This document shows positions 42,615-54,243 of a DNA stretch of 64,000 nucleotides, piece by piece. The stretch covers positions 62,001 through 126,000 of the forward strand of contig NZ_JRLV01000010.1 of NCBI RefSeq assembly GCF_000769915.1. Direction: 5' to 3'. The DNA comes from Flavobacterium beibuense F44-8 (lineage in GTDB: Bacteria > Bacteroidota > Bacteroidia > Flavobacteriales > Flavobacteriaceae). Positions within the stretch are counted from its first letter, which is position 1. Every line of letters starts with the position of its first letter. The notes beneath the pieces were generated by a model. It had not been told where the DNA came from, searched no databases, and saw only the letters and a list, made by a program, of their open reading frames with translations. The position numbers and the translations under genes are program-made.

Positions 42615-43805
42615 ATGAACAAAATATTACCTTACCTGCTTTTGCTCCTCCATTTATCGGTATTTTCACAAACCGAGAAAGATTCCTCTTCCGTTGTAAA
42701 AGTACATTACGGACACAAAGGTTTTGAACTCACTACAGCAAACGACCGTTTTGAGATGCAGATAAGGGCGCGACTACAATTTAGAGCAGCTACACCGGGT
42801 GACCAGAATCCGTTAACCTATGATGATTTTCAAACCGACAACAAAACGGTTTTTAAAATAAACAGGGCGCGACTCAAGGTAGGCGGGCATGCTTATGAAT
42901 CATGGCTTAAATATTATTTTGAATACGAACTCTCACAAAGCAACCTGCTTGACTTTAGGGTAATGTTAGAAAAGTGGGACTTTTTAAGTTTTAAGGCTGG
43001 GCAATGGAAAGTGGAGTTTTCCCGTGAACGATTTATTAGTAGTGGTGAACAGCAAATGGTAGACCGCTCCCTTATAAACCGCGAATTCACAATGGACAGA
43101 CAGCAGGGTATTGAGGTTTACGGACACCTGAAAGGCAAAGGTATAATTGACTTTAATTACTGGGTCGCTGCACTTACCGGAACAGGGCGCGGTAATACTG
43201 CTAACGATGATAATAACCTTATGTATTTCGGGCGATTGCAATGGAATTTTTTAGGGCGTGAGGTAGGATTCGAAAGCAGTGATTTGGAGTTTCATGAAAA
43301 ACCTGCTGCTATAATCGCTTTTTCAGCAGCCACAAACCGTAGTCCTTACACGCGTTTCTCACAGGCAGGTGGTGGTTACATAACCGGATTTGAAGACGGT
43401 CTTGACGGACAGTACAGGGTAAACCAAAACAATTTAGAAACAGCTTTTGTATACCGCGGATTTTCGGGACAGGCCGAATGGCATCATAAAAATATTTTTG
43501 ACAAACTTAATGGAGACCAAAAAACCCAAATGAGGGGATATTACTTTCAGGGCGGGTACTTTTTTCATTACCTGCTGGACTGGTTTCCTAAAAAAATGGA
43601 GATTGCCGCCCGATATGCCGAATATAAACCAAACATTGATTTAGCGCAAAACCTGGAGACAGAAACCTCTATTGCGTGTAACTGGTTTTTCCATGGGCAC
43701 GCGTGCAAACTCACAGGCGAAGGATCGTATTTCAGTTATCATGACAAAAGTCTTCCTTATGAAGGCGGATGGCGCTTTAGGCTTCAGCTAGATATTTCTT
43801 TTTAA
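42615..43805 (+). CDS. Phosphate-selective-type porin (OprO/OprP family)
   Basis: A 396-residue outer-membrane protein with a signal peptide (about residues 1-18, ending SVFSQ) and a barrel. ANDRFEMQIRARLQFRAA (about 42-59), FKINRARLKVGGHAYESWLKYYFEYEL, LSFKAGQWKVEFSRERFISS and REVGFESSDLEF resemble the OprO/P porin family, which passes phosphate, polyphosphate or other anions. Family members differ in ion preference, so the substrate is open. It is preceded by a terminator and lies 2.2 kb upstream of the phosphoesterase locus, with one flavoprotein gene between. Confidence 0.85.
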   Translation: MNKILPYLLLLLHLSVFSQTEKDSSSVVKVHYGHKGFELTTANDRFEMQIRARLQFRAATPGDQNPLTYDDFQTDNKTVFKINRARLKVGGHAYESWLKYYFEYELSQSNLLDFRVMLEKWDFLSFKAGQWKVEFSRERFISSGEQQMVDRSLINREFTMDRQQGIEVYGHLKGKGIIDFNYWVAALTGTGRGNTANDDNNLMYFGRLQWNFLGREVGFESSDLEFHEKPAAIIAFSAATNRSPYTRFSQAGGGYITGFEDGLDGQYRVNQNNLETAFVYRGFSGQAEWHHKNIFDKLNGDQKTQMRGYYFQGGYFFHYLLDWFPKKMEIAARYAEYKPNIDLAQNLETETSIACNWFFHGHACKLTGEGSYFSYHDKSLPYEGGWRFRLQLDISF

Positions 43806-43846
43806 TATTTCTGTCCGTTTATATTTTCTGTAACTAGGCTATACTT

Positions 43847-43854
43847 TACTTTTG
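43847..43854 (+). promoter_or_regulatory. -7 promoter element of the flavoprotein gene
   Basis: TACTTTTG fits TAnnTTTG and lies 25 bases before the ATG at 43880. No clear -33 TTTG is seen. Confidence 0.5.
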
Positions 43855-43879
43855 CAAAGTATCGAGCTAAAAAACAATT

Positions 43880-44971
43880 ATGGATAATTTTGAGTTTAAA
43901 GATTTATGGACACAAACCATAAAAGAACATGCAGCACAATCAGAACAAAACGGTAAACTGCATCATGAAATCCTTAACCTCATCCATTCCCAAAACTGGT
44001 TTAACATTTATGCACCGAAAGTATATGGCGGACTGGAAAAACCATTACCCGAAATACTGCGACTGGAAGAACAGATTGCAAAAGCCGACGGCAGTACCGG
44101 ATGGACCGTTACCCTATGCAGCGGAGCAGCATGGTTTGCTGCATTTTTAGACCCTGATTTAGCAAAAGAGGTATTCAGTAACCCAAAAGCCTGCCTGGCA
44201 GGAAGCGGTGCTGCAACAGGAACAGCAACCGTTACCCCAAACGGATATAGCATTAACGGTAGCTGGAAACATGCCAGCGGAGCATTGCACGCCACTCATT
44301 TCACCATGAACTGCATGATTAAAAACAATGATGGATCTGCAGTTTTTAATAATGATAATGAAGAACTCGTACTTTCCTTCCTTCTTAAAAAAGAAGAAGT
44401 GACCATAGTACCTAACTGGCCTTCTATGGGAATGGTAGCATCGGGCAGTCATAGCTTTACGGTAAATAATATTGAAGTCCCTGCAAACCGAAGCTTTACT
44501 ATAAACGGAAGCCCTAAAACAGCTGCTCCCTACCTCAACTATCCTTTCCTGCAATTAGCCGAAGCCACACTGGCTGTAAACTTTTTAGGAATGGCATCAC
44601 ATTTTATTGAATTGGTTAAAGATTTGTTTTACAACAGGTCGGGTATGGAACGTTTCACCCCTGAACAGAAATCTTATTTTGAAAACGAATTCATAAAAGC
44701 AAAATCACAACTTCAAAATGATTCACAGCAATTTTATGAAGTAGTAGACCTATCATGGGAGAACTACATAAAACAAGATACTATCCCTAACGATATACTG
44801 AAGCAGGTATCACATTACAGCAGAACTTTAGCACATACTGCCCGAAAAGTAACCGATACCCTTTACCCTTACTGCGGACTGGAAGCTGCCAAAACCGAAT
44901 CGGAACTTAATCGTGTATGGAGGGACTTACATACGGCAAGTCAGCATTCGTTACTCACTTTCCCGTTTTAA
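43880..44971 (+). CDS. Acyl-CoA-dehydrogenase-fold flavoprotein, possibly a flavin-dependent monooxygenase
   Basis: A 363-residue protein with the acyl-CoA dehydrogenase layout: helical N domain (about residues 1-110, YAPKVYGGLEKPLPEILRLEEQIAKADGSTGW), beta domain (about 115-215, GYSINGSWKHASGALHATHF) and C-terminal helices. The C terminus contains LNRVWRDLHTASQHSLL, like the RDxxxxxxH segment of HpaB/DszC/HsaA-type flavin-dependent monooxygenases (Acyl-CoA_dh_2), and no obvious catalytic Glu of true dehydrogenases is seen. It may therefore hydroxylate a small molecule using reduced flavin from a partner reductase; that partner is not in the window. It stands alone between the porin and the sigma-factor gene. 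Confidence 0.75.
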   Translation: MDNFEFKDLWTQTIKEHAAQSEQNGKLHHEILNLIHSQNWFNIYAPKVYGGLEKPLPEILRLEEQIAKADGSTGWTVTLCSGAAWFAAFLDPDLAKEVFSNPKACLAGSGAATGTATVTPNGYSINGSWKHASGALHATHFTMNCMIKNNDGSAVFNNDNEELVLSFLLKKEEVTIVPNWPSMGMVASGSHSFTVNNIEVPANRSFTINGSPKTAAPYLNYPFLQLAEATLAVNFLGMASHFIELVKDLFYNRSGMERFTPEQKSYFENEFIKAKSQLQNDSQQFYEVVDLSWENYIKQDTIPNDILKQVSHYSRTLAHTARKVTDTLYPYCGLEAAKTESELNRVWRDLHTASQHSLLTFPF

Positions 44972-45077
44972 AACCGTCTAAAACCTCATCAATTTAAACA
45001 TTATATAACACAAACTTAAAATAAATCTCTGGTAGGTTTTACAGGATTGTCATTCATTTGCCTATGCTGTTTTTACC

Positions 45078-45656
45078 ATGAGAGAAAAGCTTACTTCATT
45101 ACCAGACAATGAATTACAAAACCTTTTAAAACAAGGGAATGAGGCGGCTTTTGGTGTTATTTTTGACCGCTACTGGAAAAAACTCTACAACTACGCCCAC
45201 AAGATTTATCGTGACGAAGAAATTTGCCAGGATATCGTTCAGGAAATTTTCATCAGTCTTTGGAACAATGCTTCTTCCTCAAACATATTAAATCTTGAAG
45301 CCTACCTTATGCGTTCGGTAAAATACAGGGTAGCAAACCATATCAGAGGATTAAAATTCACTCAGGAACATATTGATGTGTTACAGGATATTCCGACTCC
45401 GGCAAAAACAACTGCCGATATCGAGTATCAGGAATTTGAAAAAGGCATCCTTACCGAGATTGAAAAACTTTCACCAAAATGTCGTGAAGTTTTCCTTTTA
45501 AGCCGTTTTGAAAACTACACCAATAGCGAAATTGCAAAAAAACTTGATTTATCGGTACATACCGTAGAAAAGCACATAAGCAACGCTATTAAACACTTAC
45601 GCAACAACTTAGACAATTACCAGCTGGCTATAGTTGTTATCTCATTGTTTCTTTAA
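45078..45656 (+). CDS. FecI-like ECF RNA polymerase sigma factor
   Basis: A 192-residue ECF sigma factor. Region 2 spans about residues 25-95 (FDRYWKKLYNYAHKIYRDEE, ICQDIVQEIFISLWNN) and region 4 about 120-175, with the helix-turn-helix IAKKLDLSVHTVEKHISNAIKHLRNN. The long region-2/4 linker and the RPF/STN-linked context match the Bacteroidota FecI-like group that is released when a TonB-dependent receptor senses substrate. It lies 99 bases upstream of a FecR gene, then SusC, SusD and two phosphoesterases, so it probably drives that locus. Confidence 0.93.
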   Translation: MREKLTSLPDNELQNLLKQGNEAAFGVIFDRYWKKLYNYAHKIYRDEEICQDIVQEIFISLWNNASSSNILNLEAYLMRSVKYRVANHIRGLKFTQEHIDVLQDIPTPAKTTADIEYQEFEKGILTEIEKLSPKCREVFLLSRFENYTNSEIAKKLDLSVHTVEKHISNAIKHLRNNLDNYQLAIVVISLFL

Positions 45657-45755
45657 TGTTACGGCTTAGCCTCATTTTTTAAGAAAACATTAAACGTAAT
45701 TTTCTTACTACTTGTTTGGGTCAAAAAATGTGACTTAAAGGTAAAAGCAAGTATT

Positions 45756-46688
45756 TTGAAAGAAGAAGATTTTATCGTTTTAACCCAAAAGTATGCATCA
45801 GGCAACTGTACTGAAGAAGAAAAGACTGCCGTTGAAGCTTACTTTGAAAAAATGCAAAAAACCACTAATGATATCCCTGAGCATATTCTTGACTCAAAAA
45901 GGGATAATATTTACAACTCTATAAGCAAAGCTATAAAACCTGTAAAGGTTATTCCTTTATGGAAAAAGGCCATGAGGGTTGCCGCTGCCCTGTTTATAGT
46001 AGCCGGACTTGCTTTTTGCTACACGCTTATTAATAAAGAGATACCTACTGTTACCGAGTTTGCCGCTAAAGGGGAGAAGAAAGAAGTTCTGCTGAATGAT
46101 GGCAGCGTGGTAGTACTTAACTCCAACAGTAGCATAAGCTACCCTGAAGAATTTGGAAAAACCAGAGAAGTTACTCTGGAAGGTGAAGCTTACTTTAAAG
46201 TATTCCGTAACCCGCAACAGCCTTTTATAGTTCAAACTCACAAGGTAGACATAAAAGTACTGGGAACCTCATTCAACATTAATGCTTACGACACCCTAAA
46301 CACTAAAGTAAGTGTACTTACCGGAAAAGTACAGGTAACCGATGGTGCCGGAAAAAAAGTATTCCTTATTAAAAACGAACAGGCAGAATATACCACCCAT
46401 AATGAATTTGTGCTTTTTAAAGAGAACAGCAGCGATGGTATTGCCTGGACTAAAAACATAATAATACTTAAAGACAATACGCTTGCCGAAACTGCCAGAA
46501 TACTTGAAAACTGGTACAATGTGACTATAAAATTTGAAGACAGCAGCCTTGAAAACCTTACCATAACCGGTAAGTATAAAAACGAGAAGCTGGAAAATAT
46601 ACTTGAAAGTATCGCCTTCCTTAAAGAAGTAAAAATCGATTATTTAACTAAAAACCAAATTATTATAAGAAGAAATACTCACCATTAA
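45756..46688 (+). CDS. FecR-family anti-sigma factor
   Basis: A 310-residue protein starting at a UUG. The N-terminal cytoplasmic anti-sigma region covers about residues 1-70, a single helix follows (about 71-89, VAAALFIVAGLAFCYTLI), then the periplasmic FecR domain (about 105-205, KKEVLLNDGSVVVLNSNSSI and EVTLEGEAYFKVFRNPQQPF) and a C-terminal DUF4974-like STN-related domain (about 235-305, LAETARILENWYNVTIKFED). It should hold the sigma factor inactive until the STN domain of the neighbouring SusC signals. No ATG is available near the start, which supports UUG. Confidence 0.92.
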   Translation: MKEEDFIVLTQKYASGNCTEEEKTAVEAYFEKMQKTTNDIPEHILDSKRDNIYNSISKAIKPVKVIPLWKKAMRVAAALFIVAGLAFCYTLINKEIPTVTEFAAKGEKKEVLLNDGSVVVLNSNSSISYPEEFGKTREVTLEGEAYFKVFRNPQQPFIVQTHKVDIKVLGTSFNINAYDTLNTKVSVLTGKVQVTDGAGKKVFLIKNEQAEYTTHNEFVLFKENSSDGIAWTKNIIILKDNTLAETARILENWYNVTIKFEDSSLENLTITGKYKNEKLENILESIAFLKEVKIDYLTKNQIIIRRNTHH

Positions 46689-46702
46689 CCAAAACAAAAA
46701 AA

Positions 46703-46728
46703 CCCGCGTCTGCTGCAACAGAAACGGG
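46703..46728 (+). promoter_or_regulatory. Leader hairpin between the FecR and SusC genes
   Basis: CCCG and TCTG pair with CAGA and CGGG around a CTGCAA loop, with a 2-by-2 internal bulge. It lies 54 bases before the SusC start and lacks a U-run, so it may protect the susCD mRNA 5' end or be a processing site rather than a terminator. Confidence 0.4.
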
Positions 46729-46781
46729 CCACTTACTTAAAACAAAGACTACAAACAAAATCAAATTTATAGCCTATAGTA

Positions 46782-49700
46782 ATGGATACTAAACTACAAT
46801 TTTTTTTGAATCGAATATCAAACAAATTATTTTATTTGTTTTGCACCATCCTCATGGCTGCAACCACTTTTGCTGCTCCGGTAAAAGGACAGCCAACAGG
46901 TAAGCAAATTAACCTAGACCTTAAAAATGCCTCAATTACAGAAGTTTTTTCTGCTATTGAAAACGAAACGGAATTCACTTTCGTTTTTGACGAAAAAATA
47001 TCTCAAGCTAACCAGCGCCTAACCATCAAAGCAGTTAACGAAAGTGTTGAAGATGTTTTAAATAAAATCACCATTAAAACAGGTTTCCTGTTCAAAAAAA
47101 TAAACAACACCATCACTGTTACTAAAAACCAGCAGGAAATAATCCGTGGTAAGGTAATAGATGAAGACGGACTTTCATTACCGGGTGCTTCGGTACTGGA
47201 AAAAGGAACCAACAACAGTGTAGTAACCGATATGGACGGTAACTTTACCATTACCACTTCGGCAGGTGCTACCCTTGCAGTGTCATTCATCGGTTTTGAA
47301 ACCGTAGAAGTAAAAGCAAACCCTTCTAAAGAACTTATTATTACACTTTCCCTAAAATCAAACGAGCTTAATGAGGTAGTAGTAACAGCTCTTGGTATTA
47401 AAAGGGAAGAAAAACGTTTAGGTTTCGCACAACAAACCATTAAAACAGATCAGCTTGAAACTACAACTCCAAACAACTGGTCATCTGCCTTAAAAGGTAA
47501 AGTAGCCGGTTTAAATATAGTATCATCAGGATCAGGACCACTTAACTCACAACAAATTGTATTAAGAGGAAACAGATCGCTTGTTACCGAAAACAACTAT
47601 GCTCTTATAGTAGTAGACGGTGTGCCGATGAATCAGGAGATGACAACATCTGGATCATCATCAGCCTATATGGGTCAGGACTCCCCTATTGACTATGGTA
47701 ACGGTATATCTGAACTTAACCTTGACGATATAGAAACCGTAACCGTACTTAAAGGCGCAGGTGCAACAGCACTTTATGGTAGCCGTGCAGCAAACGGTGC
47801 ATTAATCATTACAACAAAATCGGGTAAAAAGAACAAAGGTTTAGGTATTACTTATACGACAGGCGCTACTTTTGATGTAATACAAAGATGGCCGGACTGG
47901 CAGTATAAATACGGCCAGGGCACAGGAAACTCTTTTGGCGCAGACGGAAACCCATATTACTCTTACGGAAGCTCTGAAGACGGAGGTAGTACCGGTGGTA
48001 CAAGTAGTGCATGGGGACCTGAGTTTAACGGTCAGTTATTTTACCAGTACGACCCAACACTTGAAGGCCAGTCGGCAGAAAGACAATTATGGCAGCCATA
48101 CAAAGATAACCGTAAAGATTTCTGGAGAACAGGTGTAACGTACAACAACAACCTTTCTATTCAGGGAGGTGACGAGAAAGGTTCTATGCGATTCTCTTTA
48201 GGTCACCAAAAAAATGAGTGGATTATGCCTAACACAGGTTTCGAAAGAATATCTGCTGCCGTGAATGCCAATTATCAGGTTTCAGAAAGAATTAAACTGG
48301 GAACATCTGTTAACTTTAATAACAGAACCAGTGACAACCTCCCTTCTACAGGGTACAATAACGGATCTATCGCCTACTTCATGATTTTCCAAAACCCTAA
48401 CGTAGACCTTGACTGGTACCGTAGCATATGGCAACAGGGACAGGAAAATATCCAGCAGGTACACCCTTTCAGTTCGTACATAGACAACCCATATCTTATA
48501 GCTTATGAAGCTACTAACTCACTGGATAATGACCAGATAGTAGGTAACATTTTTGCTAACATTAACCTGGCTACTAATCTTGACTTAATGCTTAGATCGG
48601 CTATTAATACTTACAGTCAGCACAGGGAGCAAAGAAGACCTTACAGCATTAACCGTTATGCAAAAGGTTTCTTTAAAACACAAAATGTATATAAGCAGGA
48701 AGTTAATACTGATTTCTTACTATCATACAAAAACAACATAAGCAGCTCTATTGCTTTCTCAGGTTCTGTAGGTGGTAACCTTAAAAATTATAAATACAGA
48801 AATACTGAAGCAGAGGTTGAAGGCCTTGTGGTACCGGATGTTTACAAATTAACTAACGGTATTAATGCCCCTCTAATCAGGGCAAGAGATGCTTTTGAAA
48901 AAGTAAATTCACTTTACGGTTTAATGTCTTTTTCTTACAAAGACCAGATATTTATTGACCTTACAGGACGTAACGACTGGTCAAGCACCCTTCCGGCTGC
49001 TAACAACTCGTTCTTCTATCCTTCAGCTAACTCGAGCTTTATACTGTCGGAAATGTTCAACATGCCTAAAACTATCGATTACTTAAAATACCGTTTCTCT
49101 TTTGCTCAGGTAGGTAACGATACCGGACCTTACAAAACGCAGAAATACTACGACCAGAGTGATTTTGCGAGTTCGGCTGTAGCTCCTGTATTATTATTTA
49201 ACGACCACTTTAAACCGGAAATTACCACCAGCTTTGAAACCGGTTTTGAGTTGTATATGCTTAAAAAGCGTATTAATCTTGATGCTACTGTTTATGAGAG
49301 CAACACCAAAAACCAGATTATTGAAGTACCTATGGATTACAGTACAGGTTACAACAGAGCCGTACTTAATGCAGGTAAAGTAAGAAACCGTGGTATAGAG
49401 TTACTATTAGGCGGTAAAATATTTGACAATCCAAAATTCAAATGGGCTGCTAACCTTAACTGGTCCCGCAACTGGAACAAAGTACTTTCGTTAGCCGAAG
49501 GCATTCAGGATCAGCAGGTAATTGGTGAAGGTGGTACTGCATCTGTAATTGCTCGTGTAGGCGGTACAACTACTGCAATTTACGGTTATGGTTTTGTACG
49601 TTCTGACGACGGACAGATTGTTTATGACAATGCTGGTTTGCCTGCTTACCCGGATGAGATACAATACATAGGCGATGCAAGCCCTAAATGGAAAGCCGGT

Positions 49701-50219
49701 TTAACAAACGTATTCACTGTTGGTGATTTCACTGCCAGTGTAACGGTTGACGGACAGTATGGTGGTATTATTTACTCTCAAACGCACCACAAGTCTATGG
49801 AGCAGGGTAAACTTACCTCAACATATTATGGTAGAGAAGAAGGGTTTATTGTAGGTGACGGTGTTGTTCAAAACGGCGACGGTACTTACTCTCCAAACAC
49901 TACACAGGTTAAACCTGCCGACTGGTATAAGAGATACTACCGCAGGGCTAATATTGAGTCAAACTCATTTGACGCTTCATACCTGAAACTTCGTGAGGTG
50001 AGCCTTGGATATAACTTCCCAAAAACGTGGTTAAAAAATACAGGACTTAACTCAGTTCAGCTTTCAGTATTCGGTAGGGACCTGGCAGTAGTTTCAGACT
50101 TCCCAATATATGATCCGGAAACTGCAGCACTTAACGGTAACGTAATGCTACAGGGTATAGAAATGGGGCAAATGCCTTCGCCTGCAACTTATGGTTTTAA
50201 CTTAAAAGTGAATTTTTAA
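46782..50219 (+). CDS. SusC/RagA-type TonB-dependent receptor with an STN signalling domain
   Basis: An 1145-residue outer-membrane receptor. After a signal sequence (about residues 1-36) come an STN domain (about 45-113, KQINLDLKNASITEVFSAIE), a CarboxypepD_reg-like domain (about 118-200, GKVIDEDGLSLPGASVLEKG), the plug (about 210-345, LKGKVAGLNIVSSGSGPLNS and TVLKGAGATALYGSRAANGA) and a 22-strand-type barrel ending YGFNLKVNF. The STN domain is present only in receptors that signal to FecR, which fits the two genes upstream. With SusD it should form a lidded importer powered by TonB. Confidence 0.95.
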   Translation: MDTKLQFFLNRISNKLFYLFCTILMAATTFAAPVKGQPTGKQINLDLKNASITEVFSAIENETEFTFVFDEKISQANQRLTIKAVNESVEDVLNKITIKTGFLFKKINNTITVTKNQQEIIRGKVIDEDGLSLPGASVLEKGTNNSVVTDMDGNFTITTSAGATLAVSFIGFETVEVKANPSKELIITLSLKSNELNEVVVTALGIKREEKRLGFAQQTIKTDQLETTTPNNWSSALKGKVAGLNIVSSGSGPLNSQQIVLRGNRSLVTENNYALIVVDGVPMNQEMTTSGSSSAYMGQDSPIDYGNGISELNLDDIETVTVLKGAGATALYGSRAANGALIITTKSGKKNKGLGITYTTGATFDVIQRWPDWQYKYGQGTGNSFGADGNPYYSYGSSEDGGSTGGTSSAWGPEFNGQLFYQYDPTLEGQSAERQLWQPYKDNRKDFWRTGVTYNNNLSIQGGDEKGSMRFSLGHQKNEWIMPNTGFERISAAVNANYQVSERIKLGTSVNFNNRTSDNLPSTGYNNGSIAYFMIFQNPNVDLDWYRSIWQQGQENIQQVHPFSSYIDNPYLIAYEATNSLDNDQIVGNIFANINLATNLDLMLRSAINTYSQHREQRRPYSINRYAKGFFKTQNVYKQEVNTDFLLSYKNNISSSIAFSGSVGGNLKNYKYRNTEAEVEGLVVPDVYKLTNGINAPLIRARDAFEKVNSLYGLMSFSYKDQIFIDLTGRNDWSSTLPAANNSFFYPSANSSFILSEMFNMPKTIDYLKYRFSFAQVGNDTGPYKTQKYYDQSDFASSAVAPVLLFNDHFKPEITTSFETGFELYMLKKRINLDATVYESNTKNQIIEVPMDYSTGYNRAVLNAGKVRNRGIELLLGGKIFDNPKFKWAANLNWSRNWNKVLSLAEGIQDQQVIGEGGTASVIARVGGTTTAIYGYGFVRSDDGQIVYDNAGLPAYPDEIQYIGDASPKWKAGLTNVFTVGDFTASVTVDGQYGGIIYSQTHHKSMEQGKLTSTYYGREEGFIVGDGVVQNGDGTYSPNTTQVKPADWYKRYYRRANIESNSFDASYLKLREVSLGYNFPKTWLKNTGLNSVQLSVFGRDLAVVSDFPIYDPETAALNGNVMLQGIEMGQMPSPATYGFNLKVNF

Positions 50220-50231
50220 TCTGATTTGAAA

Positions 50232-51662
50232 ATGAAAAAGATAACTTATATAGCCGCCTGCTTATCGCTGTTTATGCTTAACACAGCCTGTACAGGTGAT
50301 TTTGAAGAAATAAACGAAGATCCAAACCGAATAGCACAAATTAGTCCGGGTACACTTATTAACCCTATCATTTATGGTATGGCAAGTCACAATGCATCAC
50401 GCAGTGCCAGTACTAATTTTGACCTTATGCAGGTTACCCTGCCTTTCCCAAGTGTATCGGGAGGCTTACATCGTTATGACGTTAGTCCTAATATAGGTAA
50501 CTCGTCATGGAATACATCCTACAAGTGGCTGGCAAACATACGTGAAATGCGTATGGCTGCCGAAGCTTCGGGAGACAACAACTACCTGGCAGCTGCCTTA
50601 ACGCTTAATGCATGGGTATACTCAAACCTAACAGACCAGTTTGGACCTGTACCTATGACTGAGGCAGTAAGAGCCGAAGACGGTATACTTTACCCTGCAT
50701 ACGACAGTCAGGAACTTATTTATGAAACCATACTTAGCGACCTGGAAACGGCAAACCAACTATATGATACCGATATGGGTATGATATATGCAAGCGACAT
50801 CCTTTTTAATAATGATGTTGAGAAATGGAAAAAATTCACCAACTCATTACACATGAGACTTTTATTAAGAATCTCAAACCGTACTGAAACGAATGCTTTC
50901 CAAAAGCTTACAACAATGATAAACAACCCTGAAGAATATCCTGTATTTGAAAGCAATGCTGAGTCGGCTATACTACAGGTAACAGGCGTAGGTGCAAACG
51001 TATCGCCTTGGGGAAGACCTCAGGATTTTAGGCTTAACGTAAAAATGGCATCATTCTTTATTGACAATCTTAACGACTGGAACGACCCAAGAAGACCGCT
51101 TATCGCTACAACAGGTACTGATCTTGACAATAACAACATTGGCTATATAGGTATCCCCAGCGGTTATGACGGACCGGATTCTCAGTTTGAATATAATGCC
51201 TCTACCTTACAGATACTACAGGTTACTAACCCAATGCAAATTTTTATTCTTCCTTATTCTGAAGTAGAATTCATTAAGGCAGAAGTTGCGCAAAGAGGAT
51301 TTACAGGTGATGCCGAAGAGCATTATAACAAAGGTGTTAAAGCAGCTATAGAGCAGGTTAAAGCCACTATGCCCGAAGATTACTTTGATAATACAGCAGT
51401 ACAGTATGACGGCACACTGGAACAGATAATGCTTCAAAAATACTATGCCCTGTATTTTGTAGACTACCAGCAATGGTTTGAGTTTAGAAGAACCGGCTTA
51501 CCAGAGCTTCCTACCACTCCTGCAATGCTTAACAACGGTATAATGCCATCAAGGTTCCCTTATCCTTCAGACCAGCAGGTATACAACCTTTCAAACTACC
51601 AGGCTGCTGTACAAATGATAGGTGAAGACGACATCAACACCAAAGTTTGGTGGGATAATTAA
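50232..51662 (+). CDS. SusD/RagB-family substrate-binding lipoprotein
   Basis: From the ATG at 50232 the protein has 476 residues; a UUG two codons upstream opens the longest frame but adds only two residues. The signal ends LNTA before Cys20, and the mature protein begins TGDFEEINEDPN. The body is alpha-helical with TPR-like segments (WNTSYKWLANIREMRMAAEA, YLAAALTLNAWVYSNLTDQFGPVPMTEA, WKKFTNSLHMRLLLRISN), typical of the SusD-like_2 family. It caps the SusC barrel and binds the substrate at the cell surface. It lies 12 bases after susC. Confidence 0.93.
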   Translation: MKKITYIAACLSLFMLNTACTGDFEEINEDPNRIAQISPGTLINPIIYGMASHNASRSASTNFDLMQVTLPFPSVSGGLHRYDVSPNIGNSSWNTSYKWLANIREMRMAAEASGDNNYLAAALTLNAWVYSNLTDQFGPVPMTEAVRAEDGILYPAYDSQELIYETILSDLETANQLYDTDMGMIYASDILFNNDVEKWKKFTNSLHMRLLLRISNRTETNAFQKLTTMINNPEEYPVFESNAESAILQVTGVGANVSPWGRPQDFRLNVKMASFFIDNLNDWNDPRRPLIATTGTDLDNNNIGYIGIPSGYDGPDSQFEYNASTLQILQVTNPMQIFILPYSEVEFIKAEVAQRGFTGDAEEHYNKGVKAAIEQVKATMPEDYFDNTAVQYDGTLEQIMLQKYYALYFVDYQQWFEFRRTGLPELPTTPAMLNNGIMPSRFPYPSDQQVYNLSNYQAAVQMIGEDDINTKVWWDN

Positions 51663-51677
51663 TAGATTCAACTAAAA

Positions 51678-53252
51678 ATGAAAAAACACATTATTACAAC
51701 AGGTATGCTGCTTTTTGCAGCATACCTTTCTGCCCAAACCGTTACAGGGACAGTATATAACGATATTAACCAAAACGGTAAAAAAGAAAGAAAAGAAAAA
51801 GGCGTTGCCAATGTTGCCGTTACTAACGGACGTGATGTAGTACTTACCGATAAAAAGGGTAATTATGAACTTAGCATTAGCGATGATGCTATAATATCGG
51901 TAATAAAACCGGCAGGGTATAATGTTCCTGTTAACAATGACAACCTTCCTCAGTTTTTTTACATCCACAAACCACAGGGTTCTCCTAAAGCAAAATTTGA
52001 TGGTGTTACACCAACAGGAAAACTACCTAAATCGGTAGATTTTGCACTAACGACTGCTAAGGAAACCGAAGATTTCACTGCGCTTGTTTTTGGCGATCCG
52101 CAACCATACAATCTTGAAGAGATTGACTTTTATGCAAGAGGTATTGTTGCCGATGTCCAGGACACAAAAGGTGTTGTTTTCGGACTTAGTATGGGTGACC
52201 TTGTAGGTAACGACCTTAGCCTTTTTAATCCATACATTCAGGCTACAAAAAAAGTAGGATTACCTTGGTACAATGTACTGGGTAATCACGATTTGAATTT
52301 TGACGCCGAAAATGATAACCTTGCCGACGAGACCTATGAGGCTCACTTTGGCCCTGCCAACTATGCATTCAACTATGGTAAGGTTCACTTTATAGTGCTG
52401 GATAACGTTATGTACCCTGATCCAAGAGATGCAAAAGGTTACTGGGGTGGTTTTAGGGAAGACCAACTTGAATTCCTTGAAAACGACCTGAAGTTTGTAC
52501 CTAAAGACCATCTTATTGTACTGGCATTCCATATCCCAATTAGCGAACCGGAAGCAAATGATGATTCTTTCCGCGATGAAGACCGTAACAGGATGTTCCG
52601 TGCGTTAAAAGATTATCCTTATACCCTTTCCCTTTCGGCTCACACGCATTTACAGCGTCAGGATTTCTTCAATAAAGAAGACGGATGGTTACAGGACAAA
52701 CCTCATCACCATTATAATATCGGTACAACTTCGGGCGACTGGTATTCGGGTAAACTGGATGAAAAAGGAATCCCTATTTCTGTAATGAGAGATGGTACAC
52801 CAAAAGGTTATGCTTTTATCCACTTTAACGGTAACCAATACAGCATTGAATATAAAGCTGCCGGAAAAGCCAAAGAACATCAAATGGAGGTATTTGCCCC
52901 TAAGGTTATTGCTAAAGGAAAAAGAACAAAAGCAGGTGTTTTTGTAAACTTCTTTATGGGTGGTAAAAATGACAAAATTGAATACCGTGTAGACAATGGT
53001 AAGTGGGAGCAAATGCATCACGTTGAAGCGCAGGATCCGTCGTATGTGGAACTGGTTTACGAATGGGACCTAGCGGAAGAACTCATGGCAGGAAGACGTT
53101 CGTCAGATCCGGTTATCAGTACGCACGTATGGAGAGGTAGTCTTCCGGCTAACCTTGAAACCGGTGAGCATAAAATTGAAATAAAAGCTACCGATATGTT
53201 TGGTAAGGTACACACAGCCGTAAAAAGCTACCGAATAGAAATGCCTAAATAA
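51678..53252 (+). CDS. Exported calcineurin-type metallophosphoesterase
   Basis: A 524-residue protein with a signal peptide (residues 1-19, ending YLSAQ), an N-terminal SdrD_B/Metallophos_N-like beta domain (about 20-110, VYNDINQNGKKERKEKGVAN), a catalytic domain (about 130-370) and a C-terminal Metallophos_C domain. Metal ligands are visible in FGDPQPYN, LSMGDLVGND, VLGNHDLNFD, AFHIPIS and SAHTHLQRQ. It hydrolyses phosphoester bonds in the periplasm or at the surface; its true substrate is unknown. It lies directly after susD and two bases before the GDPD gene. Confidence 0.92.
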   Translation: MKKHIITTGMLLFAAYLSAQTVTGTVYNDINQNGKKERKEKGVANVAVTNGRDVVLTDKKGNYELSISDDAIISVIKPAGYNVPVNNDNLPQFFYIHKPQGSPKAKFDGVTPTGKLPKSVDFALTTAKETEDFTALVFGDPQPYNLEEIDFYARGIVADVQDTKGVVFGLSMGDLVGNDLSLFNPYIQATKKVGLPWYNVLGNHDLNFDAENDNLADETYEAHFGPANYAFNYGKVHFIVLDNVMYPDPRDAKGYWGGFREDQLEFLENDLKFVPKDHLIVLAFHIPISEPEANDDSFRDEDRNRMFRALKDYPYTLSLSAHTHLQRQDFFNKEDGWLQDKPHHHYNIGTTSGDWYSGKLDEKGIPISVMRDGTPKGYAFIHFNGNQYSIEYKAAGKAKEHQMEVFAPKVIAKGKRTKAGVFVNFFMGGKNDKIEYRVDNGKWEQMHHVEAQDPSYVELVYEWDLAEELMAGRRSSDPVISTHVWRGSLPANLETGEHKIEIKATDMFGKVHTAVKSYRIEMPK

Positions 53253-53254
53253 TT

Positions 53255-54172
53255 ATGAAATATAATAAAGCCTATTTAGTTTTCGCAATGGCAGGAGCAA
53301 TAATTTCCTGTAAAAACGAAAGCAAGAAAGTACAGGAAACTGTTGAGCAACCTAATATCACTATAGAGGTACAGGGACACAGGGGTGACAGGGGTAATTT
53401 CCCCGAAAACACCATACCTGCCTTTTTAAGTGCCGTTAAAAAAGGAGCAGATGTGGTAGAGCTTGATGTGGTAATCTCTAAAGATGGTAAAGTAGTGGTT
53501 TCACACGAACCTTTTATGTCGTCATTATATGTTACCACTCCGGCAGGAGATTCTATTGCAAAGGAAACCGAACGCAGTTATAACCTGCATGAAATGACCT
53601 ACGACAGCATTAAGAAGTTTGACACGGGCTCTAAAGGAAATAAAAACTTTACCCAACAACAAAAAATGCATACCTACAAGCCATTACTTGAAGAAGTGAT
53701 AGACAGCGTAGAAAACTATGTAAAGGCAAATAATAGTAAACCTGTATATTATAATATCGAAATCAAGTCGGAGGAAAAAGAGTATGGTATCAGTCAACCA
53801 CATCCAGCTGTTTTTGTAGATATGGTAATGCAGATACTTACTAAAAAAGCGATAATAGGCAAAATGAACATTCAGTCATTTGACCCTGCTATCCTTAATG
53901 AAATGCATAAAAAATATCCTCAGGTAACCCTAGCTTACCTTACCGCAAAACCGGGCATAGAGAGCAACCTGTTGCAAATGGATTTTACACCATCTATTTA
54001 CAGCCCTAACTATAAGTTGGTAAACGAGGCTTTCATAGACTCTTTAAGACAGAAAAACATGCGCGTTATTCCGTGGACGGTGAATAACGATGAAGACATA
54101 AACCGCATGATACAGCTTAAAGTAGACGGTATTATTACCGATTATCCTGAGAGAGTACTTAGCAAGTTATAA
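53255..54172 (+). CDS. Exported glycerophosphodiester phosphodiesterase (GlpQ-type) lipoprotein
   Basis: A 305-residue lipoprotein (lipobox near residue 19, AIIS before Cys) with a GDPD TIM barrel. Catalytic pieces are QGHRGDRGNFPENTIPAF (His and Glu, about 40-57), VVELDVVISKDGKVVVSHEP (metal Glu/Asp and the second His, about 68-87), NIEIKSEE and the C-terminal IPWTVNNDEDINRMIQLKVD with IITDYPE. It splits glycerophosphodiesters into glycerol 3-phosphate and an alcohol. It is the last gene of the locus and precedes a terminator. Confidence 0.93.
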   Translation: MKYNKAYLVFAMAGAIISCKNESKKVQETVEQPNITIEVQGHRGDRGNFPENTIPAFLSAVKKGADVVELDVVISKDGKVVVSHEPFMSSLYVTTPAGDSIAKETERSYNLHEMTYDSIKKFDTGSKGNKNFTQQQKMHTYKPLLEEVIDSVENYVKANNSKPVYYNIEIKSEEKEYGISQPHPAVFVDMVMQILTKKAIIGKMNIQSFDPAILNEMHKKYPQVTLAYLTAKPGIESNLLQMDFTPSIYSPNYKLVNEAFIDSLRQKNMRVIPWTVNNDEDINRMIQLKVDGIITDYPERVLSKL

Positions 54173-54196: not shown

Positions 54197-54243
54197 AAAA
54201 AACCCTCAAAGGCATTGCCGGCGAGGGTTTTTTACTATATATA
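54197..54243. terminator. Bidirectional terminator after the GDPD gene
   Basis: AAAAAACCCTC pairs with GAGGGTTTTTT, and inside it GGC pairs with GCC around ATT. It closes the phosphoesterase locus and also faces the convergent peroxiredoxin-like gene. Confidence 0.9.

Follow-up and report, generated by a model that had tools for sequence, protein, structure and literature searches.

We analysed a 64,000-nucleotide (nt) stretch of the Flavobacterium beibuense F44-8 genome (contig NZ_JRLV01000010.1, positions 62,001 to 126,000; hereafter the window), in which six genes of the plus strand combine a SusCD pair, two phosphoesterases and a FecI/FecR-type regulatory pair. The initial annotation, made from the sequence alone, had described these genes as a row with short gaps, closed by a terminator and free of glycoside hydrolases, and had read them as a signal-controlled system for scavenging phosphoesters. 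The open reading frames (ORFs) were confirmed, with intergenic gaps of 99, 93, 6, 15 and 2 nt in gene order, and Pfam and NCBIfam searches agree with the proposed identities: an extracytoplasmic function (ECF) sigma factor, a FecR anti-sigma factor, SusC with an STN domain, SusD, a calcineurin-type metallophosphoesterase (MPE) and a glycerophosphodiester phosphodiesterase (GDPD). To these we add two predicted regulatory elements, a PHO-box-like repeat before the ECF gene and a cis-antisense RNA opposite the susC leader:

45004–45021, plus strand: 7+4+7 direct repeat resembling a PHO box, TATAACA-CAAA-CTTAAAA, 74 nt upstream of the ECF start codon
45053–45060, plus strand: −7 box TTCATTTG of the predicted ECF-FecR promoter, 35 nt from the repeat, position per PMC9723704
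45078–45656, plus strand: ECF sigma factor (TIGR02985, PF04542, PF08281)
45756–46688, plus strand: FecR anti-sigma factor, TTG start (PF04773, PF16344)
46696–46784, minus strand: predicted cis-antisense RNA of about 89 nt with two hairpins (covariation, fold, strand-specific 5' hairpin)
46703–46728, minus strand: terminator hairpin of the predicted antisense RNA, followed by a minus-strand T run at 46696–46702
46789–46796, minus strand: predicted antisense −7 box TAGTTTAG, of TAnnTTTG type, inside susC codons 3–5
46782–50219, plus strand: SusC TonB-dependent transporter with STN signalling domain (TIGR04056, PF07660, PF07715)
50226–51662, plus strand: SusD-like_2 surface lipoprotein (PF12771; N-termini; export signal per PMC5080379)
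51678–53252, plus strand: exported MPE with MetallophosN, Metallophos and MetallophosC domains (PF16371/PF00149/PF16370; metal ligands; model pLDDT 94)
53255–54172, plus strand: GDPD lipoprotein, probably periplasmic (PF03009; structure match 3ch0; catalytic residues)
54197–54233: terminator, possibly bidirectional (fold with A and T flanks)

By domain content the row is a FecI/FecR signalling operon: the ECF sigma factor matches TIGR02985 above cut-off, FecR carries PF04773 together with FecR_C (PF16344), and SusC (TIGR04056, with a plug domain) bears STN (PF07660). FecR was read from the TTG at 45756, an in-frame ATG near its start being absent. SusD matches PF12771 (E 4.8e-151) and, weakly and under its cut-off, PF14322. 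No glycoside hydrolase family was matched by any of the six proteins, as the initial annotation had claimed, and the row thus lacks the glycan-active enzymes beside SusCD that define a polysaccharide utilisation locus. The terminator placed at its end corresponds to a fold at 54197–54233 (−18.7 kcal/mol, z −2.75) that could work on both strands; a consensus terminator scan did not pick it up.

Both enzymes keep their catalytic motifs. The catalytic histidine pair and the metal-binding acidic residues of GDPD (H42, H84, E69, D71, E169) are conserved in 14 of 14 sequences, and its closest solved structure is 3ch0 (E 5.8e-62). In MPE, the ligand motifs GD, GNH, H and HxH (D174, N203, H204, H285, H322, H324) are kept in all 47 aligned sequences; we take the roles of these residues in both enzymes to be those known for their families. 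The first metal motif of metallophosphoesterases is usually D-x-H, whereas MPE has D-P-Q (residues 138–145), with D140 and Q142 kept in 43 of the 47. A phmmer search against the PDB gave no match for MPE, and Foldseek placed its predicted structure (pLDDT 94) closest to purple acid phosphatase and Rv0805, which is uninformative on substrate. With these dinuclear metallophosphoesterases MPE shares the catalytic fold and metal-ligand motifs, but identity in the top matches is 12–17%, and MPE has additional N- and C-terminal domains besides its D-x-Q motif. By inspection, MPE has an ordinary signal peptide. After its lipid cysteine SusD carries TGDFEE, with T-x-D-F-E-like residues in most orthologs of its class, and is labelled a surface lipoprotein because this stretch is close to SDDFE, a predicted surface signal in F. 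johnsoniae (PMC5080379). GDPD lipoproteins mostly start with C-K and lack an acidic stretch of the SusD kind, which suggests that GDPD probably faces the periplasm.

The published PHO box spans 18 nt, with two 7-nt direct repeats separated by 4 nt (PMC4415409), and the repeat at 45004–45021, upstream of the predicted promoter, has this form. Upstream of the ECF genes of related loci the pattern reads CTTAACC-N4-CTTAAAM, also 18 nt. We scored each site as the repeat together with TTTG, from the flavobacterial −7 box, with the spacing held at 35 nt; given the published position of that box, −12 to −5 (PMC9723704), the ECF-FecR transcript is predicted to start near 45065. Repeat and TTTG were found at this spacing in 14 of 14 upstream regions (the window, L034, L035, L037, L080, L041, L105, L109, L108, L112, L113, L106, L266 and L264; L032 was excluded as nearly identical to the window), each with a leave-one-out p of 0.005, the floor of 200 shuffles. 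The sites were chosen with a consensus from the same set, which the leave-one-out procedure offsets in part only. Eight control upstream regions were taken, two of them too short; five of the remaining six gave p values of 0.10–0.63 (one being just 87 nt long), and the last control, L114, whose genome carries an MPE, lay on the borderline (score 11.5, p 0.005). Within the window a single site scores at least 17, the repeat itself. Outside the training set, high scores were obtained for L270 (21.1), for L033 directly before susC (23.0) and for L053 directly before an MPE gene (20.9); two further sites before susC, in L103 (16.4) and L036 (16.9), rest on position. An earlier candidate for the ECF promoter, GACTACAAA with TATAGCC, was set aside: its spacing varies by eye, and in the window the two parts pair with each other on the minus strand.

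The company that the repeat keeps elsewhere may point to phosphate. In the source genome the strict repeat occurs 15 times, against 7 for the control, and TTTG follows at the right distance in three: at this operon, at a purple acid phosphatase with a type IX secretion system (T9SS) tail, and at an ORF divergent from PhoU_div and PiT (with a CitMHS match under threshold). A looser pattern is hardly enriched there on its own (12 matches versus 8 controls). Over 22 genomes with related loci the pattern gave 14 matches versus 5 controls, 5 of the 14 at new places. These include an ECF-FecR-SusCD operon with an enzyme of the alkaline phosphatase (AP) superfamily (L264), a degenerate second copy of the locus in Gillisia (L265), the ECF gene of the Mesonia K7 operon (L266) and, in Salegentibacter flavus (L267), genes for a lipoprotein and a TonB receptor that diverge from a gene for a PhoB-like regulator. 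The recurrence of the repeat at the purple acid phosphatase, at PiT/PhoU_div and, in another genome, at a PhoB-like regulator would fit a PhoB-type gate, with the repeat as a candidate PHO operator in some members of the family.

Several observations weigh against this reading. Scores of 16–18 were also reached at unrelated positions, away from any such gene start (L046, 17.6; L051, 17.2; L174, 17.3). The sites of L271 (12.1) and L274 (the L114 locus, 11.5) are weak, and neither L269, which encodes SusCD and GDPD, nor L273 has one at its ECF gene. One of the new sites lies before htpG, and the PhoB-like regulator of L267 falls under its family cut-off (217.6 of 296.2 bits). The strict site was found in 1 of 24 other Flavobacterium genomes, where it reads as the F. 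flevense ortholog, with 4 control hits in the 25; it is missing from the other 23, so that the repeat is not a genus-wide PHO box. Beyond the regulatory site, one of the Tamlana-type relatives, Algibacter (L043), has GH2 and sulfatase genes after the MPE-GDPD pair. The second FecR-SusC operon of the source genome (L272) has no site at its ECF gene.

The second element lies at the fecR-susC junction, where a hairpin is conserved with compensatory changes: 9 of 11 pairs are changed on both sides, and covariation is 0.448 versus 0.105 after shuffling (0/500; 14 sequences, 13 distinct). No Rfam family matched the junction at its gathering score, and the near-matches (BTnc201, BTnc049, PyrR and others) fell so far under theirs that we took them as chance. 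The hairpin was at one time considered a plus-strand terminator or leader, an explanation dropped after tests of strand. In 21 of 22 loci the minus strand continues past it into a T run (at least 5 T of 8), versus 3 of 22 for the plus strand, the exception (L041) having its stem clipped by the script. At positions +7 to +14 from the susC ATG, 16 of 21 loci (L032 dropped from the count) carry a minus-strand box of TAnnTTTG type with at least 5 of the 6 letters matched; the mean score at this offset is 4.67, the next best offset gives 3.57, and all offsets average 2.10 (sd 0.62). No clear consensus was seen for a −33 element upstream of it. Inherited SusC N-terminal residues may explain part of this conservation; the box is kept in L035, L037, L103 and L177 despite their differing SusC proteins.

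Taking the published −7 position (PMC9723704), transcription of the antisense RNA would begin at 46784 and stop near 46696, giving 89 nt. This RNA folds at −27.4 kcal/mol (z −3.86), and in 20 of 20 loci, with predicted lengths of 74–108 nt, the minus-strand fold is more stable than its plus-strand counterpart. Taken alone, the 5' hairpin reaches z ≤ −2 in 16 of 20 loci when folded as the minus strand and in 0 of 20 as the plus strand, because there its G-U pairs turn into A-C. In 15 aligned loci, 15 of the 20 pairs of the two-hairpin RNA are changed on both sides, 93.9% of cells pair, and covariation is 0.482 versus 0.236 shuffled (0/500). We therefore predict an antisense RNA with its own promoter and terminator opposite the susC leader.

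Elements resembling this predicted RNA occur at other FecR-SusC junctions. A family search gave 29 FecR loci, of which five had no following ORF; among the remaining 24, a minus-strand terminator hairpin was seen by eye in 8, and in the 7 of these tested further the 5' part has z values of −1.7 to −3.2 on the minus strand versus −1.35 to 1.12 on the plus strand. The −7 box, at 5 letters or more, was present in 1 of the 24, L215, which belongs to the operons described here. Another FecR-SusC junction of the source genome (L139:1148-1225) carries an antisense-RNA-like element of the same layout, which implies that such an RNA is not specific to phosphoester loci. The hairpin is absent from a large FecR-SusC class whose SusC proteins begin with 'MRTFIFLF'-type residues (L193–L207), so that at least two regulatory classes of this junction exist. 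In a family scan with model R1, matches of about 36 bits or less were mostly ordinary terminators among the 20 regions inspected.

This anatomy resembles that of DonS, the cis-antisense RNAs of Bacteroides that lie opposite susC genes and lower their expression (PMC7366714, PMC11697453). As these are described, position against the susC start and a 3' terminator would be shared, and the predicted lengths (74–108 nt, 20 loci) compare with 78–128 nt in print. The predicted Flavobacteriaceae RNA differs in its family of hosts and in its phosphoester operon. The transcriptome of F. psychrophilum lists antisense RNAs, offered as a starting point for such studies (PMC9723704); we found no report of an RNA of this kind from flavobacteria in the open-licence literature, in a search that was partly narrow in wording.

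The initial annotation had proposed a search of flavobacterial genomes for co-occurrence of the six genes, and the result bears out the grouping. Among 199 sampled Flavobacteriaceae genomes, some MPE match was found in 38 and a match of at least 50% identity in 13. GDPD is the gene right after MPE in 9 of these 13, and all six genes keep the same order in 6 (G000, G121, G144, G111, G117 and G053), which suggests a grouping beyond chance; the variant occurs in a minority of the family. In G013 every gene but FecR was detected, an additional MPE lies upstream in G153 and G173, and G030, G094, G040 and G196 had no GDPD match within the fetched stretches. Among named loci, many of them on short contigs, MPE and GDPD are adjacent in 13 of 73. 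The nearest named relative found, F. rakeshii, has the entire block at 94–98% identity, and complete sets were also found in F. flevense, Gillisia limnaea, Mesonia hippocampi and Mesonia K7, where three opposite-strand ORFs separate ECF from FecR.

Elsewhere, parts of the locus are exchanged. Salegentibacter L035 and L037 retain ECF, FecR, MPE and GDPD with a different SusCD (PF07980/PF14322 SusD, tested in L035), and L038 has the exchanged SusCD without detected ECF or FecR. The place of GDPD is taken by an Exo_endo_phos enzyme in L036 and L103; an AP-superfamily enzyme follows MPE in L047 and is the sole enzyme behind SusCD in L264. Seonamhaeicola, Algibacter and Tamlana (L042–L045) have two tandem MPE genes (one of about 660 amino acids) and a BACON lipoprotein behind another SusCD pair. 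More distant MPE relatives (Planctomycetes, Balneolaceae and others) mostly lack a SusCD or GDPD match nearby. The degenerate second copy in Gillisia limnaea (L265:1782-6145) consists of the site, ECF, FecR, fragments of SusC and MPE, and GDPD, and the SusCD operon of L178:78-7451 includes GDPD, ECF, FecR and the hairpin but neither MPE nor a PHO-box-like site.

SusCD loci that scavenge phosphoesters are already in print as the phosphate utilisation systems (PUS) of F. johnsoniae, which combine SusCD, phosphoesterases and ECF/FecR genes and are strongly induced by phosphate depletion (PMC8115612); the same study reports plant-associated Bacteroidetes as prominent mobilisers of organic phosphorus. 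Our locus, with SusCD next to phosphoesterases rather than glycan hydrolases, is a variant of this kind with another SusD class and enzyme pair. In PUSI–IV, too, the transporter is accompanied by an ECF sigma and/or FecR gene, and PUSI also includes a PF00149 metallophosphoesterase, beside a phospholipase C-like phosphodiesterase (PMC8115612). The locus does not belong to the PUSI subtype, which has a PF14322/PF07980 SusD and a PF16670 enzyme (PMC8115612), whereas here we find a PF12771 SusD and a MetallophosN/C enzyme with GDPD (PF03009). Induction by low phosphate was measured for PUS and is predicted here; a PHO box is not mentioned in the main text of PMC8115612. Our literature searches on this gene set brought up no paper that describes exactly this combination. 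What is new is regulatory: the candidate PHO operator before the ECF gene and the structured antisense RNA predicted at susC.

We suggest that this SusCD operon senses its substrate and serves the uptake of organic phosphate, and that phosphate starvation probably gates it; we put the probability of the model as a whole at about 60%. Gene content, intact catalytic residues and conserved gene order argue for it; its phosphoester nature is suggested by the PHO-box-like element and by relatives that replace GDPD with other phosphoesterase families, and the phosphate gate by the analogous PUS loci, whose ECF/FecR genes are induced in low phosphate (PMC8115612, Table 1). In low phosphate, a PhoB-type response regulator would bind the 45004–45021 repeat and switch on ECF-FecR. 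FecI/FecR relays are known to pass a signal from the STN domain of the transporter to FecR, releasing the ECF sigma factor; here substrate at SusCD would act through STN and FecR to free the sigma factor, and susC, susD and the MPE and GDPD genes would be transcribed. The arrangement shares the ECF sigma factor, FecR with FecR_C and the STN-bearing transporter with FecI/FecR cell-surface signalling; what sets it apart is the transporter, a SusC covered by a SusD lid, and what seems to be a second layer of control acting on ECF-FecR. SusCD would import a phosphodiester, most likely a glycerophosphodiester from deacylated phospholipid, from which GDPD would liberate glycerol 3-phosphate in the periplasm, with MPE freeing phosphate from that or a related ester. 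Nothing met in the analysis points to the teichoic-acid fragment that the initial annotation had considered. A housekeeping-type promoter inside the start of susC would meanwhile produce the 89-nt DonS-like RNA, which would cover the susC leader and silence leaky mRNA until the ECF sigma factor makes mRNA in excess.

The phosphoester system first proposed thus gains independent support from the PHO-box-like element and from the exchange of GDPD for Exo_endo_phos or AP enzymes, but its kind was already known from PUS and one group of relatives has it beside glycan genes; its FecI/FecR control is confirmed at the level of domains but appears richer, with a predicted low-phosphate gate and a predicted antisense RNA. 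On a broader scale, a two-hairpin cis-antisense RNA family of Flavobacteriaceae, with its promoter in the first susC codons, may gate a subset of FecI/FecR SusCD operons. In the phosphoester branch a PHO-type operator would drive ECF-FecR, import would require low phosphate and substrate together, and the RNA would set the threshold, the operator persisting through swaps of SusCD and enzymes and sitting before susC or an enzyme gene where ECF/FecR is absent. We consider this generalisation evenly balanced, a level lowered because the weak sites of L103 and L036 do not outscore unrelated positions. If true, organic phosphate would cross the outer membrane of flavobacteria under a logic gate that requires low phosphate, substrate and an antisense threshold together, part of the family would have a candidate PHO operator, and antisense control of DonS type would extend beyond Bacteroides and beyond glycans.

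Since SusCD pairs usually serve glycans, the transporter could instead import a phosphorylated glycan or glycoconjugate for carbon, with the phosphoesterases stripping substituents and glycosidases encoded elsewhere; the GH2 and sulfatase genes of Algibacter L043 and the BACON lipoprotein of Tamlana, Algibacter and Seonamhaeicola would fit. Against this, the block encodes no glycosidase, GDPD gives way to phosphoesterase families in relatives, and a PHO-box-like site is present; we regard a glycan locus as unlikely. The repeat, for its part, could be the site of another OmpR-family regulator responding to a signal other than phosphate, such as envelope stress. Tandem repeats are the general binding targets of this family, the site does not occur throughout the genus, and the Salegentibacter flavus regulator falls under the PhoB cut-off. 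This explanation seems rather doubtful to us, because the repeat has exactly the published 7+4+7 form (PMC4415409) and three of four well-placed non-ECF sites are phosphate-related (purple acid phosphatase, PiT/PhoU_div and the PhoB-like regulator; not htpG).

For the junction, the alternative is a plus-strand mRNA leader structure and no antisense RNA. Being nearly a palindrome, the terminator hairpin can form on either strand, and the −7 box overlaps codons that were possibly kept for the protein. The strand bias of the 5' hairpin (16/20 versus 0/20) and of the T runs (21/22 versus 3/22), together with a rightly placed minus-strand box in 16 of 21 loci, makes a leader structure very unlikely, and we retain the predicted antisense RNA.

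Directly upstream of the operon, at 42615–44971 on the same strand, are genes for a Porin_O_P protein (phosphate-selective porin family, PF07396) and an acyl-CoA dehydrogenase-like protein; no PHO-box-like site scoring at least 15 precedes them. In the 3.8-Mb source genome MetallophosC was matched once, GDPD twice and PF12771 five times, weakly in three of these five cases. A second PF12771 SusCD pair (L130:3305-11241) is divergent from a purple acid phosphatase of 913 amino acids with a T9SS tail, and two PHO-box-like sites, with scores of 25.3 and 17.8, lie between them.

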